Shown piece after piece: positions 14,650 through 36,457 of a DNA stretch of 40,094 nucleotides. The first letter of the stretch is position 1, and every line of letters starts with the position of its first letter. The DNA comes from Methylobacter sp. (GTDB lineage: Bacteria > Pseudomonadota > Gammaproteobacteria > Methylococcales > Methylomonadaceae), in assembly GCA_028712225.1 (NCBI GenBank), contig JAQTQN010000006.1, forward strand, positions 1 through 40,094. The letters run 5' to 3'. The notes below the pieces were generated by a model. That model did no database searches and was not told the DNA's origin. It was given only the letters and a program-made list of their open reading frames with translations. A program made the translations under genes and the position numbers.

Positions 14650-14694
14650 AAAAAACCCCGGTTGAAAATACACAATTTTCAACCGGGGTTTTTT
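14650..14694. terminator. Bidirectional terminator between ybdD and the PEP-CTERM gene
   Basis: A perfect 20-bp stem (arms 14650-14669 and 14675-14694) encloses a 5-base loop. It has a six-A run on one side and a six-T run on the other, so it can end both the cstA-ybdD transcript and the convergent minus-strand transcript. Confidence 0.93.
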
Positions 14695-14719
14695 GTTTTT
14701 GAGCAAAGCGATTTGGTGT

Positions 14720-15307
14720 TTAGATAATCTGTTTACGTTTTGCGCTCCATAGCAAACCGAACAATCCGGAACCAAACAACCACATTGCCGCAGGAACGGG
14801 GACTGGTGCAGGTTCTAAAGTTACTTGTAAAGCGTAGCTACTGGTTCTTTGGAAGAGTCCTGAGTCAATAAATGTATCAGGAGCAGAGCCTGTCCAAGAT
14901 TGAGTGTTGTTGTCCCATTCGTTACCAAATTGAGTTAATGCAATGGTGTAATTACCAGGCGCCAACGTTAATGTAATCAAGTCATCCCAGCTGAATCCTG
15001 ATGATGCACTTTCGCGATCCTCTACATCATCGCCTGTGGTACTGGTGACGGGAAATAATGTTGTTGGGCCAAACAAAGTTAGAGTTGAGTCAAAGCCGCC
15101 ATCGGCAACAGAGGTTCCATTTGCCAAGGTGCCGCCGGCATAGCCGAAGGTTTCAAATGTAGTAAGGGTGTCTTCGGTTAGTGTGAAGTTGTATGTAAAT
15201 ACATCATTACCGGTGCCAAAATTGCCCTGATAATTGGTTACTGCGGCGCTAGCTGATCCAGCTGACAGCGCCGCAAAAAATAAAATCGAGCCAAATAGTT
15301 TGTTCAT
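14720..15307 (-). CDS. PEP-CTERM sorting domain protein, DVUA0089-like
   Basis: Secreted protein predicted to be processed by an exosortase and released or anchored as exopolymer-associated protein. It has 195 residues: a signal peptide at about 1-21 (cleaved near SASA), a beta-rich body, and a C-terminal sorting tail at 169-195 with VPVPAAMWLFGSG, a hydrophobic helix and the basic end KRKQII. The body (a GGTLANG and GGFDSTLTLFG region, then LTLAPGNYTIALTQF) resembles the DVUA0089 family of Ca-binding-like extracellular proteins, which I recognise only by pattern. No exosortase or exopolysaccharide gene is nearby, so it is an orphan target. AAGGT lies about 9 nt before the ATG. Upstream are a sigma-54-type promoter and two repeated elements. 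Confidence 0.85.
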   Translation of the reverse strand: MNKLFGSILFFAALSAGSASAAVTNYQGNFGTGNDVFTYNFTLTEDTLTTFETFGYAGGTLANGTSVADGGFDSTLTLFGPTTLFPVTSTTGDDVEDRESASSGFSWDDLITLTLAPGNYTIALTQFGNEWDNNTQSWTGSAPDTFIDSGLFQRTSSYALQVTLEPAPVPVPAAMWLFGSGLFGLLWSAKRKQII

Positions 15308-15405
15308 AAATATTTACCTTGTTGAAGTTTAAGTTAAGTTTTTTGGGGTTATTTTATGGAAGATTGTAGGTCAGCCAAATTTGAAAATTAATCTTTAAAA
15401 TAACT

Positions 15406-15421
15406 AGCAAAATTAATACCA
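15406..15421 (-). promoter_or_regulatory. Sigma-54 (RpoN) type promoter for the PEP-CTERM gene
   Basis: On the minus strand the sequence reads TGGTATTAATTTTGCT. This fits the consensus TGGYAYR-N4-TTGCW at all but one position, with the diagnostic GG and GC separated by exactly ten bases (GG at 15420-15419, GC at 15408-15407). The predicted transcript starts near 15395, giving a leader of about 88 bases before the ATG at 15307. Confidence 0.65.
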
Positions 15422-15491
15422 ATTTAATTTTTATTATTAATCCATTATAAATCAATAGGATATTTTTGTGCTCGATTACTGGCCTCTAAAT

Positions 15492-15512
15492 GTGTAAAAA
15501 ATCATGACACTT
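15492..15512. promoter_or_regulatory. Repeated 21-bp element, copy 1 (candidate enhancer site)
   Basis: Pattern GTGT-A6-N3-TGACACTT, with outer GTGT/ACAC inverted ends. Centred about 107 bp upstream of the predicted sigma-54 start of the PEP-CTERM gene, a usual place for an activator binding site. Confidence 0.55.
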
Positions 15513-15652
15513 TGGGCGTTTTTATTGGGTATTTGATTTTTGATGCTGAGATTCCGAGTTGAGCAATTAAGGTTCGAATGATGAATTATAAGGGGCTGTA
15601 GCCATATTAGTTGAAAAAAGTGGGTGAATATTGATTTTCACATAAAAATAAA

Positions 15653-15673
15653 GTGTAAAAAAAGCTGACACTT
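15653..15673. promoter_or_regulatory. Repeated 21-bp element, copy 2 (candidate enhancer site)
   Basis: Same pattern as the copy at 15492, identical except for the three central spacer bases. Here the arms AAGTGT and ACACTT are a 6-bp inverted repeat. It lies 161 bp from copy 1 and about 145 bp before glgP, so it could serve either gene. Confidence 0.55.
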
Positions 15674-15679
15674 ACATGG

Positions 15680-15693
15680 TGACAATTTTGTCA
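15680..15693. promoter_or_regulatory. Inverted repeat TGACAA-TT-TTGTCA
   Basis: Two 6-bp arms separated by two bases, immediately beside copy 2 of the 21-bp element, which also contains TGACA. It may be part of a composite operator upstream of glgP. No regulator is identified. Confidence 0.35.
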
Positions 15694-15817
15694 GTCTGCC
15701 TTAAAGCCGACGTAGAAATTGATAACTGATCTGCTAAGCGCGTGCAGAATGTTTTGTCTAACCATGTAAAAATAGTTACCATCCAAGCTTAAGTTATTTG
15801 TAGGGAATATTTAGAAC

Positions 15818-18319
15818 ATGCCAAATAGAAAGTTCAAAACCAGTCAGCCAAAATCCACTATTACCGCATTACCCAACCTGGGTATGGATAAGAAGCACGT
15901 AGTAACCGATTTTAAACGTTATTACGGACATCGCTTAGGGCGTGATGAAAATTGCCGATCCCCTCATTACGCCTATGAAGCATTATCTCTAGCCGTCAGC
16001 GATCGCTTAATAGAGCGCTGGAAAAAAACCTATAACTCTTATAAGGAAACGGACTGCAGGAAAGCCTACTATTTGTCGATGGAATTTCTAATGGGCCGCA
16101 GTTTGAGTAACGCAATGCTTAATTTAGGCATTGACGATTCTGTTTCAAAGGCCATGTACGATTTGGGGCTTGAGCTTGAGGAATTGGTTGATAGTGAGCC
16201 TGATGCAGGCTTAGGTAATGGCGGTTTAGGTCGATTGGCGGCTTGTTTTATCGATAGTTGTGCAACCTTACAACTACCAGTAACTGGCTACGGTTTGCGT
16301 TATGAGTACGGGATGTTTTCTCAGGTGATTATCAACGGTGAGCAAGTTGAAAAACCAGATCACTGGCTGCGTAATGGCAATGTTTGGGAAATTGAACGCT
16401 CCGAATACGCGCATCGGATTAAATTTGGCGGGCGTACTGAAACGCATATTGATGAGCGGGGCAAGGAGCGTGTGTCCTGGGTAGATACGCATGATGTGTT
16501 AGCCGTGCCTTTTGACACCCCGGTGCCTGGATACCAGAATGGTACAGTCAATACGCTGCGTTTGTGGAAGGCAACAGCTACGGAGGAGTTTGATTTACAA
16601 GAATTTAACGCCGGCGATTATGCTGAAGCTGTTGCGGCAAAAAACACCGCTGAAAATATCACTATGGTGCTTTATCCCAACGATGCTAATGAAAACGGTA
16701 AAGCATTGCGGCTAAAGCAGCAGTATTTGCTGGCATCGGCAAGCCTACAGGATGTAATCGCCAGTTGGGTGGGACGCCATGGCAACGATTTTTCTGAGTT
16801 TGCAGCGAAGAATTGTTTTCAATTAAATGACACCCATCCGAGCATCGCCGTTGCCGAACTGATGCGTTTATTGATAGACGTGCATGGGCTTGCTTGGAAT
16901 GATGCCTGGAATATCACGCGTAGCACCATGGCTTACACCAATCACACGCTATTGCCTGAGGCACTTGAGCGCTGGTCTGTTACGCTGTTCAAACAATTAT
17001 TGCCTAGATTGATAGAGATCATTTTTGCTATCAATGCCCATTTTCTGGCCGAAGTTTCTGCTCATTGGCCTGGAGATAAAGATAGGTTGGCACGGATGTC
17101 ACTGATTGAAGAAGGCCATGAGCAACAGGTGCGCATGGCTTATTTAGCTATCGTAGGCAGCTATTCGGTTAACGGTGTGGCGGCGTTACACTCTAAATTA
17201 TTGCAGCAAGGTTTATTTCGAGATTTTTATGAGCTTTGGCCAAGTAAATTTAATAATAAAACCAATGGAGTTACTCCTCGCCGTTGGCTAGCTGCTTGCA
17301 ATCCCGAGTTGGCGACGTTAATTACTAAGGCTATTGGAGACGGCTGGGTGACTGATTTGTCACAGCTGAAAAAATTGGAGCCATACGCTGACGATCCGAC
17401 GTTTCGCAAACGCTGGAATGACATTAAACAAAGTGCCAAACAAAAACTGGTGGACTTCAAGAAGCAAGAGCATGACATGGATTTGAACGTGAATGCTTTG
17501 TTTGATGTACAAGTAAAGCGTATTCATGAATACAAGCGGCAATTGTTGAATGTTTTGCATGTCATTCATCTTTACGATCGCATTAAGCGCGGTGATACGG
17601 CTAATTGGACAGAGCGCTGCGTATTAATCGGTGGCAAGGCTGCCCCCGGCTATTTCATGGCGAAAAGAATTATCAAGTTAATCAATAACGTTGCCTCAGT
17701 AATTGATAATGATCCCGATGTGGGGCCAAAGCTTAAGTTGATTTTTTTGCCTAATTATCGCGTGTCGGCAATGGAAAAAATTTGTCCAGGCGCTGATTTG
17801 TCTGAGCAGATTTCTACGGCGGGTAAAGAAGCCTCAGGTACCGGCAATATGAAATTCATGATGAACGGGGCTTTGACTATTGGTACGCTTGATGGCGCTA
17901 ATATTGAGATCCGTGAAGAAGTAGGCGACGATAACTTCTTCTTGTTCGGATTGACAGAAGATCAGGTTGAGGATTTGCGTCATCACTATGACCCTCTCTC
18001 ATTCATTCAACAAGACGAAGATTTGCAGAGAGTGATTAAGTTGCTGGAGTGCGGACATTTCAATCAGTTCGAGCCGGGTATTTTTGATTGCATCGTCGCG
18101 TCAATAAAAAGCCCTCACGATCCTTGGATGACCATCGCTGATTTTCGTAGTTTTGTCGACGCCCAAAGACGTGTAGAAGCGGCATATAAAGATAAAGAAC
18201 TTTGGACCAGAATGAGTATTCTGAATTGCGCGAACAGCGGTAAGTTTTCAACTGACAGAACTATTACTGAGTACAGCAATGATATTTGGAAGTTGACGCC
18301 AGTTAATCCTGGTAGTTAG
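15818..18319 (+). CDS. glgP: Glycogen/starch/alpha-glucan phosphorylase
   Basis: PLP-dependent enzyme that releases glucose-1-phosphate from glycogen. It has 833 residues, normal for bacterial GlgP (about 815-840). The PLP lysine is Lys679 within EASGTGNMKFMMNGA, close to Lys680-type positions of known enzymes. Other conserved blocks include YYLSMEFLMGRSL near 87, EPDAGLGNGGLGRLAACF near 130, the catalytic-loop NDTHPSIA, and KRIHEYKRQLLN near 567. An N-terminal extension of about 25 residues is basic and poorly conserved. It stands without other glycogen genes here and is followed 8 bases later by trmL. AGGGA lies about 14 nt before the ATG, slightly far for a ribosome site. Confidence 0.97.
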   Translation: MPNRKFKTSQPKSTITALPNLGMDKKHVVTDFKRYYGHRLGRDENCRSPHYAYEALSLAVSDRLIERWKKTYNSYKETDCRKAYYLSMEFLMGRSLSNAMLNLGIDDSVSKAMYDLGLELEELVDSEPDAGLGNGGLGRLAACFIDSCATLQLPVTGYGLRYEYGMFSQVIINGEQVEKPDHWLRNGNVWEIERSEYAHRIKFGGRTETHIDERGKERVSWVDTHDVLAVPFDTPVPGYQNGTVNTLRLWKATATEEFDLQEFNAGDYAEAVAAKNTAENITMVLYPNDANENGKALRLKQQYLLASASLQDVIASWVGRHGNDFSEFAAKNCFQLNDTHPSIAVAELMRLLIDVHGLAWNDAWNITRSTMAYTNHTLLPEALERWSVTLFKQLLPRLIEIIFAINAHFLAEVSAHWPGDKDRLARMSLIEEGHEQQVRMAYLAIVGSYSVNGVAALHSKLLQQGLFRDFYELWPSKFNNKTNGVTPRRWLAACNPELATLITKAIGDGWVTDLSQLKKLEPYADDPTFRKRWNDIKQSAKQKLVDFKKQEHDMDLNVNALFDVQVKRIHEYKRQLLNVLHVIHLYDRIKRGDTANWTERCVLIGGKAAPGYFMAKRIIKLINNVASVIDNDPDVGPKLKLIFLPNYRVSAMEKICPGADLSEQISTAGKEASGTGNMKFMMNGALTIGTLDGANIEIREEVGDDNFFLFGLTEDQVEDLRHHYDPLSFIQQDEDLQRVIKLLECGHFNQFEPGIFDCIVASIKSPHDPWMTIADFRSFVDAQRRVEAAYKDKELWTRMSILNCANSGKFSTDRTITEYSNDIWKLTPVNPGS

Positions 18320-33870: not shown

Positions 33871-33931
33871 TAGTCGGTCAAATTTAACAATTCATTGTCA
33901 ACAGACCCCGCATTCAGGATAATTAAACTGT

Positions 33932-33963
33932 GTTATATAACCTTATTAAATGAGTTATATAAC
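33932..33963. promoter_or_regulatory. Tandem GTTATATAAC palindromes before the TauE/SafE gene
   Basis: Two identical 10-bp palindromes (33932-33941 and 33954-33963) have centres 22 bp apart, two helical turns. Together they form a larger inverted repeat with 11-bp arms. They overlap TATATAA sequences able to act as -10 boxes, which would suit a repressor. They lie about 70-100 bases before the ATG at 34031. Confidence 0.5.
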
Positions 33964-34030
33964 ATAGTTCTCATTTATCAAGCCTGGATAACATTTGCTT
34001 TTCTTCAACCCTGCGATAACTTTAGCCACT

Positions 34031-34763: not shown

Positions 34764-35729
34764 ATGGCTTATTTCAGATCAATTATTGGTCAATCCCCTT
34801 CGTTGGATTCACTAATTCGTAGTGCAAGAATTGTGGCCACAACGGATGTCACTGTTTTGCTTAAAGGCGAAACAGGCACTGGCAAAGAGGTATTTGCTAA
34901 AGCCATTCAGAAATCCAGTTCACGCTCTGATAAACCTTTTATTACTGTCAATTGCGCAGCGCTTCCTGAAGGCTTGATTGAGTCTGAGTTATTTGGTCAC
35001 AAAAAAGGTGCTTTTACGGGCGCTAGTTCCAGCACCCAAGGTTTGCTACAGGCGGCCGACGGAGGCACATTATTTCTCGATGAAATCAACTCATTACCAC
35101 TAGGGGTGCAAGCGAAATTTTTGCGATTTTTGGATTCCGGGGAATGTCTTGTGGTTGGGGAAACTAAGCCTATTAAGGTGAATGTTCGTGTAATTGCTGC
35201 AACCAACTCCGATTTGACCAAGCAAATTAGCCAGGGCGATTTTAGACAAGACTTATATTTCAGGTTAAATGTCGTCCCCTTAGAGCTGCCGCCACTCTCC
35301 CAACGCACTGAAGACATTGAGCCGTTGGCCGTACATTTCTTAAATTTATTTGCCAAAGCTCATTCGATTGACGAACCTAAGTTAAGTAAAGCCACGCTAA
35401 AAGTGTTAAAGCACTATAAATGGCCGGGTAATATTCGAGAATTACGTAATTTGTGCGAAAGATTGAGTGTGTTATTAGCCGGACGAACTATTGAACCGGA
35501 AAATCTTCCAGCAGAGTTTAGCGTGACCGTAACTGGCGAATTGCCGGAAAGTGGCGATTTTATTTTGCCGGCGGAAGGGGTGCAATTGGATTCTTTGGAA
35601 GCTGATTTAATCAGTCAGGCTTTGCAACGCACTAATGGCAATCGCGCAAAAACAGCAAAATTGTTGGGTATATCAAGGGACACGTTGCTGTATCGAATGC
35701 AAAAACATGGCTTTTCAATATCGCATTAA
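34764..35729 (+). CDS. Sigma-54-dependent activator without sensor domain (PspF-like)
   Basis: AAA+ enhancer-binding protein that would remodel RpoN holoenzyme. It has 321 residues, close to PspF (325). The AAA+ domain starts almost at the N-terminus (IIGQSPSLDSL), with Walker A GETGTGKE at 35-42, the sigma-54 contact loop GAFTGA at 82-87, and Walker B GTLFLDEI at 101-108. A Fis-type helix-turn-helix lies at about 290-316. There is no receiver, GAF or PAS domain, so control must come from a partner protein, as PspA does for PspF, but no psp genes are present. GAGAGG lies just before its ATG, and translation is probably coupled to the TauE/SafE gene. Confidence 0.9.
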   Translation: MAYFRSIIGQSPSLDSLIRSARIVATTDVTVLLKGETGTGKEVFAKAIQKSSSRSDKPFITVNCAALPEGLIESELFGHKKGAFTGASSSTQGLLQAADGGTLFLDEINSLPLGVQAKFLRFLDSGECLVVGETKPIKVNVRVIAATNSDLTKQISQGDFRQDLYFRLNVVPLELPPLSQRTEDIEPLAVHFLNLFAKAHSIDEPKLSKATLKVLKHYKWPGNIRELRNLCERLSVLLAGRTIEPENLPAEFSVTVTGELPESGDFILPAEGVQLDSLEADLISQALQRTNGNRAKTAKLLGISRDTLLYRMQKHGFSISH

Positions 35730-36457
35730 AGACAACGCAGCCATTGCACGGTGACATTGTCGCTCCTGCCGAGTGCGCGTAATACCGTTAATTGAGCCAC
35801 TTTACCTAGCGCGGCTTTACCACTGGCAGGCTGTGCTAACTGTAATAATTCTGTCTGTTTTACATTCCCCCAAAACCCATCAGTACATAACAAAAAAGTC
35901 TCACCCTTTTGAATTGCGGGATATTCGTGAATTTCGGGGTGATGTTTTTTCAATACATTGATGCTGCGCGTTAGCTGATTTTGATCAGGATGCACTCCCA
36001 TTTCCTCTTCGGATATTTTACCGGCGTTCAGCAATTGCTGTGGGATGGAATGATCTTGGCTACGCCACAGGATTTCCTTAGGATTCATCCGATAGATGCG
36101 CGAGTCGCCGCAATGTGCAGTTAATACGCGGTGGCTATCGATAAATAGACAAACACAGGTGGTATGCGCCTTACTGGCTACCTCGTCATCTTGAAACAGC
36201 AGTTTCATCTTGTCAATTGCCGCATCTACCCAGGCTGCAAAAGTCGCGACTGGATTTTCCTGTATACGCTTACTGTAGTCTGCAGTGGCTAACAAGCCTT
36301 GACAAAAAAAACGCGAAGCTTTGTCGCCGGCACTATAGCCACCCAAGCCATCAGCTACCACAAGCAAGGCATACTCATCATTGATGATATATGCCATATA
36401 ATCCTGGTTGCTTTCCCTGTCGCCGGCGGACGTGAGTTGATAAAACTCAAACTCCAT
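35726..36457 (-). CDS. PP2C-family serine/threonine phosphatase
   Basis: Soluble Mg/Mn-dependent protein phosphatase of 243 residues with the complete PP2C motif set: GDRESNQD at 12-19, VADGLGGYSAGDKAS at 34-48, HCGDSRIYRM, RSQDHS and LLCTDGFW. The metal-binding aspartates are all present, so it should be active. No transmembrane segment or kinase domain is fused, and no partner kinase is in view. Its stop codon overlaps that of the convergent sigma-54 activator gene. It begins 4 bases after the pdxJ stop, so it is probably the distal gene of the lepB-to-pdxJ transcript. Its substrate is unknown. Confidence 0.9.
   Translation of the reverse strand: MEFEFYQLTSAGDRESNQDYMAYIINDEYALLVVADGLGGYSAGDKASRFFCQGLLATADYSKRIQENPVATFAAWVDAAIDKMKLLFQDDEVASKAHTTCVCLFIDSHRVLTAHCGDSRIYRMNPKEILWRSQDHSIPQQLLNAGKISEEEMGVHPDQNQLTRSINVLKKHHPEIHEYPAIQKGETFLLCTDGFWGNVKQTELLQLAQPASGKAALGKVAQLTVLRALGRSDNVTVQWLRCL

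Follow-up and report, generated by a model that had tools for sequence, protein, structure and literature searches.

Background

The closest described counterpart of the system reported here is that of Haft et al. 2006 (PMC1569441), which, in the sections drawn on here, presents a 17-nt motif (motif 1) that has the 3' end TTTACA and precedes 99 of the 167 proteobacterial PEP-CTERM genes. According to those sections, motif 1 is sometimes repeated and is followed on average 62.8 nt later (range 32-92) by a GG/GC sigma-54 motif (motif 2), whose end lies 23-221 nt upstream of the start codon within a non-coding region of more than 200 nt; the spacing is given there only as mean, standard deviation and range. 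The same sections assign motif 1 to the response regulator PrsR on the basis of its phylogenetic profile. In D. vulgaris, DAP-chip of the regulator that had been predicted for genes of this kind showed binding to five predicted PEP-CTERM targets, the motif not being validated (PMC3333781), and in Aquincola tertiaricarbonis the RpoN dependence and the transcript start of the PEP-CTERM gene pepA have been shown experimentally (PMC9850573).

Here we analyze a 40,094-nt stretch of Methylobacter sp. DNA (hereafter the window), for which a PrsR-type, sigma-54-dependent PEP-CTERM promoter had been predicted from the sequence. That original prediction is largely right and not new, the locus adding one more member to a regulon that was described in 2006. 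What goes beyond the known regulon is the helical phasing of box and promoter, the position of IHF-like sites and a second conserved motif, none of which we found in the literature searched, a search outside which most subscription journals lay.

The PEP-CTERM gene and its two upstream boxes

The gene in question (14720..15307, minus strand) codes for a protein of 195 aa with a signal peptide-like N-terminus and the C-terminus VPVPAAMWLFGSGLFGLLWSAKRKQII, which belongs to the DVUA0089 family (NF038127) and is borne out as a PEP-CTERM protein by matches to PF07589 (23.6 bits, cut-off 20.7) and TIGR02595 (17.8 bits, cut-off 16). Its description as an orphan target holds for the window ORFs scanned, since no match to an exosortase or EPS family was found among them. 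An A+T-rich intergenic region of 510 nt (15308-15817) separates it from its divergent neighbor, the glycogen phosphorylase gene glgP (15818-18319, plus strand). On its other side, between it and a small ORF, a strong inverted repeat flanked by A and T runs was seen by eye at 14650-14696 and looks like a terminator serving both strands.

The sigma-54 -24/-12 site TGGTATTAATTTTGCT (15406..15421, minus strand), which ends 98 nt before the ATG, has the GG-N10-GC spacing claimed for it when read from 15421 to 15406; it departs from TGGCAC, and its promoter block is kept as TGGTRTTAATTTTGCT in related loci. Both copies of the predicted 21-bp repeat, GTGTAAAAAA-N3-TGACACTT, are exact (15492-15512 and 15653-15673, 161 bp apart). 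In the direction of the PEP-CTERM gene the element reads TGTCA-N3-TTTTTTACA, i.e., 17 nt with the 3' end TTTACA, and this 17-bp dyad (TGT-N11-ACA) is nested in AAGTGT-N11-ACACTT, one outer base being different in the proximal copy. We accordingly delineate two predicted PrsR boxes on the minus strand, a proximal one, TGTCATGATTTTTTACA (15493..15509), 71 nt from the -24 element, and a distal one, TGTCAGCTTTTTTTACA (15654..15670), 161 bp upstream of the first; the two share one orientation with respect to the gene, and the remaining box loci of the genome show this too. The distances of 107 and 268 bp originally proposed are valid with respect to the predicted transcription start (~15395) and not to the ATG (15307), upstream of which the box centers lie at 195 and 356 bp. 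In related loci from two other genomes, one of them represented twice, both boxes and the promoter block form conserved islands, and the inter-box sequence is divergent and carries indels (161 versus 174 bp).

Judged by the cited text of Haft et al. 2006 (PMC1569441), the resemblance to the published arrangement is close: the window boxes are 17 nt long and end in TTTACA, their distance of 71 nt to the promoter lies inside the 32-92 range, and the position of the promoter 98 nt before the ATG and the 510-nt intergenic region are likewise in range. Moreover, a PEP-CTERM gene follows, and PrsR, PrsK and RpoN are encoded in the same genome.

The regulon within the genome

In the whole genome, a 3.1-Mb draft that is 84% complete, the exact box core (TGTCA or TGTCG) is present at nine sites in four loci, namely C131 (the window), C46, C53 and C311, each with two or three co-oriented copies followed by a GG-N10-GC site and a PEP-CTERM gene; the genome-wide search proposed with the original prediction thus places nine of nine exact cores upstream of such genes. 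The boxes are 186 bp apart at C46 (L028), 182 bp at C53 (L029), and 232 and 178 bp at C311 (L030). A fifth, degenerate pair at C3 (L204) has a spacing of 186 bp and lies 311 nt from the closest GG-N10-GC site; the product of the gene downstream is interrupted by the contig end at VPLPQAVWMFG. At all four of these further loci the boxes are co-oriented relative to the PEP-CTERM gene. The idea of a regulon traceable across the genome is therefore upheld for the exact cores, but a box is present at only about 4-5 of the approximately 43 PEP-CTERM genes. A looser version of the motif (2 mismatches) was rejected, as chance swamps the signal (141 matches versus 101 in controls). The genome codes for both PrsR (TIGR02915, 702 bits) and PrsK (TIGR02916, 685 bits) above the curated cut-offs, with the two genes adjacent on C142, for RpoN on C33 (TIGR02395, 498.9 bits, above cut-off), and for about a dozen further enhancer-binding proteins.

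The box and PrsR across other genomes

A scan of 84,980 species genomes for the exact 18-base form of the box recovered 108 stretches, many of them gammaproteobacterial (e.g., Methylococcaceae, Colwellia and Sedimenticola); those from Bacteroidota look like chance matches because, by inspection, the genes downstream lack PEP-CTERM. Across 121 box loci, a GG-N10-GC site is found downstream of the box on the same strand at 73 and on the other strand at none. A TIGR02595 match (E up to 0.5) in the ORF that follows was obtained at 28 of the 46 genome-scan loci examined that have such a site, compared with 4 of the 28 that lack it. Three loci (L067, L095 and L137), of which two stem from Sedimenticola and a Polarisedimenticolaceae MAG, have a box spacing of 122 and a promoter 65 nt away in common. 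By inspection, no PEP-CTERM gene lies directly downstream of them, and they look like one recurring arrangement.

We then consider co-occurrence in a sample of 201 genomes of the order (Methylococcales), 27 of which have a strict box. PrsR is found above cut-off in 25 of these 27 as against 72 of the 174 others (Fisher p = 3.5e-7, a value that is too small because the genomes are related, even if the direction is clear). This tracking of PrsR by the box, together with the presence of PrsR, PrsK and RpoN in the genome, supports the reading of the 21-bp element as a PrsR-type site; the notion that it is specific to this lineage fails, because both element and assignment are already contained in the cited sections of the 2006 paper (PMC1569441). 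The boxes might instead belong to another sigma-54 activator, with the co-occurrence of PrsR reflecting the shared ecology of PEP-CTERM systems. The 72 genomes with PrsR and no strict box speak for this, as do the dozen or so further enhancer-binding proteins and the two box genomes (G083 and G143) in which no PrsR match above cut-off was found; nevertheless, we deem it unlikely in view of the 25 of 27 box genomes with PrsR and of the D. vulgaris regulator with its five predicted targets bound by DAP-chip, albeit with a motif that was not validated (PMC3333781). Even less probable is that the boxes serve the divergent glgP, whose start codon lies about 145 bp from the distal box: the direction of the boxes and a sigma-54 site at the right spacing favor the PEP-CTERM gene, and a gene of this kind also follows the boxes, in their reading direction, at the genome's remaining box loci, whose other neighbors vary. 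A chance origin of the repeats, for which one might invoke the A+T-rich intergenic region and the departure of the promoter from TGGCAC, is excluded for practical purposes by the conserved islands of boxes and promoter in related loci and by the genome-wide data, with 0.05 matches to the 21-bp element expected per 40-kb window even when 3 mismatches are allowed (dinucleotide shuffles) and no match to the reversed pattern in the 201 genomes. Taking the locus as a whole, we hold with considerable confidence that it is a PEP-CTERM promoter under the control of PrsK/PrsR and RpoN. Points that count against this reading are the departure of the window promoter from TGGCAC, the unusual placement of its IHF-like sites (see below) and the two box genomes in which PrsR gave no match above cut-off.

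Helical phasing and IHF-like sites

For each locus we took the distance from the box nearest the gene to the best-scoring GG-N10-GC site, whatever that distance was. After removal of similar loci by shared words only, such that the box and promoter sets include related species, 85 spacings remained, which cluster at 52.7, 62.7, 73.3, 83.7 and 94.4 nt with the gaps nearly empty. At a period of 10.5 bp these give R = 0.73 (n = 85), as compared with a mean of 0.15 and a maximum of 0.37 in 5000 draws of a jitter null that keeps the envelope and shifts each value by up to 5 nt. The phasing remains when the main cluster is left out (R = 0.70, n = 41), and it is also seen with the genome scan by itself (R = 0.73, n = 46), a set in whose selection promoters played no part. 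When other genomes were subsequently searched for spacings of 71-101, the values obtained were 71, 72, 73, 74, 75, 81, 85, 85, 86 and 95. The box-to-promoter spacing is thus quantized in whole helical turns across many bacteria. Between the boxes themselves there is no helical phase at 10.5 bp (R = 0.08), and the best over other periods has p = 0.07.

The spacers between box and promoter contain a recurrent TAACTATTTGATA-like stretch. Scoring against the IHF consensus YAANNNNTTGATW places 23 of the 33 matches of at least 8/9 at positions -33 to -30 relative to the -24 element, with 7.4 expected over all positions together, and the position of this peak is identical for the 60-65 and 71-76 spacing classes. 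Because the pattern had been noticed in the same data, nine previously unused loci were checked, and in four of them an 8/9 match lies at positions -33 to -31. The window promoter has two tentative IHF-like sites on the minus strand, both matching 8/9 and both also present in the related loci L107 and L108: TAATGGATTAATA (15435..15447), 26 nt before the -24 element in an A+T-rich stretch, and TATCCTATTGATT (15450..15462), 41 nt before it. As these stand at -26 and -41 rather than at -33 to -30, a role for IHF is less certain for this promoter. Within the literature searched, the papers that name both IHF and PEP-CTERM are, by title or abstract, on other subjects.

A second conserved motif and a candidate activator

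Shared words upstream of other sigma-54-like promoters, at genes without a box, uncovered a second motif, TTRAACTRTGTTATTTAAC. When up to one mismatch is allowed, the genome contains 13 sites, at least nine of which stand upstream of box-less PEP-CTERM genes with a sigma-54-like site (the site at C245 being weak). Elsewhere the genes downstream of it, again with sigma-54-like sites, are of various kinds and not PEP-CTERM genes alone. It is present in 98 of the 201 genomes of the order, almost all from the same family, and reversed controls gave zero. These observations suggest a second sigma-54 activator for PEP-CTERM genes. In L352, L354 and L360, from other genera, the motif also appears as a perfect 28-bp palindrome, TTAAACTRTGTTAWWTAACAYAGTTTAA, which is suggestive of a dimeric regulator.

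The window itself contains an inverted pair of the motif, TTAAACTGTGTTATATAAC (33923-33941, plus strand) and the weaker GAGAACTATGTTATATAAC (33954-33972, minus strand), just upstream of a gene for a DsbD_2-type membrane protein and of an orphan sigma-54 activator (34764-35729, plus strand). The latter is an enhancer-binding protein that has AAA+ and Fis-type HTH domains and no receiver or sensor domain; after it comes a convergent gene for a PP2C-type phosphatase (35726-36457, minus strand). The activator gene sits behind a copy of the motif, as do its orthologs in two other genomes, which makes it a weak candidate for the regulator of the motif. Its phylogenetic profile does not discriminate, as orthologs are found in nearly all genomes of the order, many of them without the motif.

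Proposed mechanism and significance

We posit that PrsK phosphorylates PrsR, an NtrC-type enhancer-binding protein, which would then bind the proximal 17-bp dyad, some 107 bp ahead of the transcription start, always on one face of the DNA. Across the wider regulon, a bend in the DNA that separates box and promoter is probably introduced by IHF, and PrsR may reach the sigma-54 polymerase via a short stiff loop; such a loop, with PrsR on a fixed face, would explain the comb of spacings (~53, 63, 73, 84 and 94 nt). The distal box probably raises the local concentration of PrsR or aids its oligomerization; since there is no box-to-box phase at 10.5 bp, it is more likely to raise occupancy than to make contact. 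Taken together, we lean toward a picture in which PrsR-box promoters are phase-locked in many proteobacteria, with an IHF bend roughly 32 nt ahead of the -24 element, and in which the family's second element, TTRAACTRTGTTATTTAAC, runs sigma-54-dependent PEP-CTERM genes in parallel with an activator of its own.

The window locus and its genome provide independent support, with sharper geometry, for a computational prediction that is 20 years old. Should PrsR boxes work solely at whole-turn spacings with IHF, PEP-CTERM promoters could be called by geometry in addition to sequence. Natural enhancers whose helical comb is this clean would suit the study of short-range looping. The second motif suggests that the surface-protein genes of these bacteria are split between two sigma-54 circuits.

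Comparison with known systems

Promoters of the NifA/NtrC type with IHF have a dyad upstream element and a -24/-12 promoter with an IHF site between the two, and they depend on the face of the helix. The present locus differs from them in its dyad, TGT-N11-ACA, and in its predicted regulator, PrsR, and the parallel is drawn as a comparison, not as a claim of membership. The A. tertiaricarbonis pepA promoter (PMC9850573) similarly drives a PEP-CTERM gene from a -24/-12 site that is preceded by a predicted enhancer; however, it concerns another organism and another protein family, the window protein scoring 25.1 bits against a PepA cut-off of 80. Relative to the system of Haft et al. 2006 (PMC1569441), as represented in its cited sections, pairs or a triplet of boxes are seen here at every box locus of the genome, and a minority of the PEP-CTERM genes carry boxes; to that system, whose cited sections make no mention of either, the present analysis adds helical phasing and an IHF-like site.
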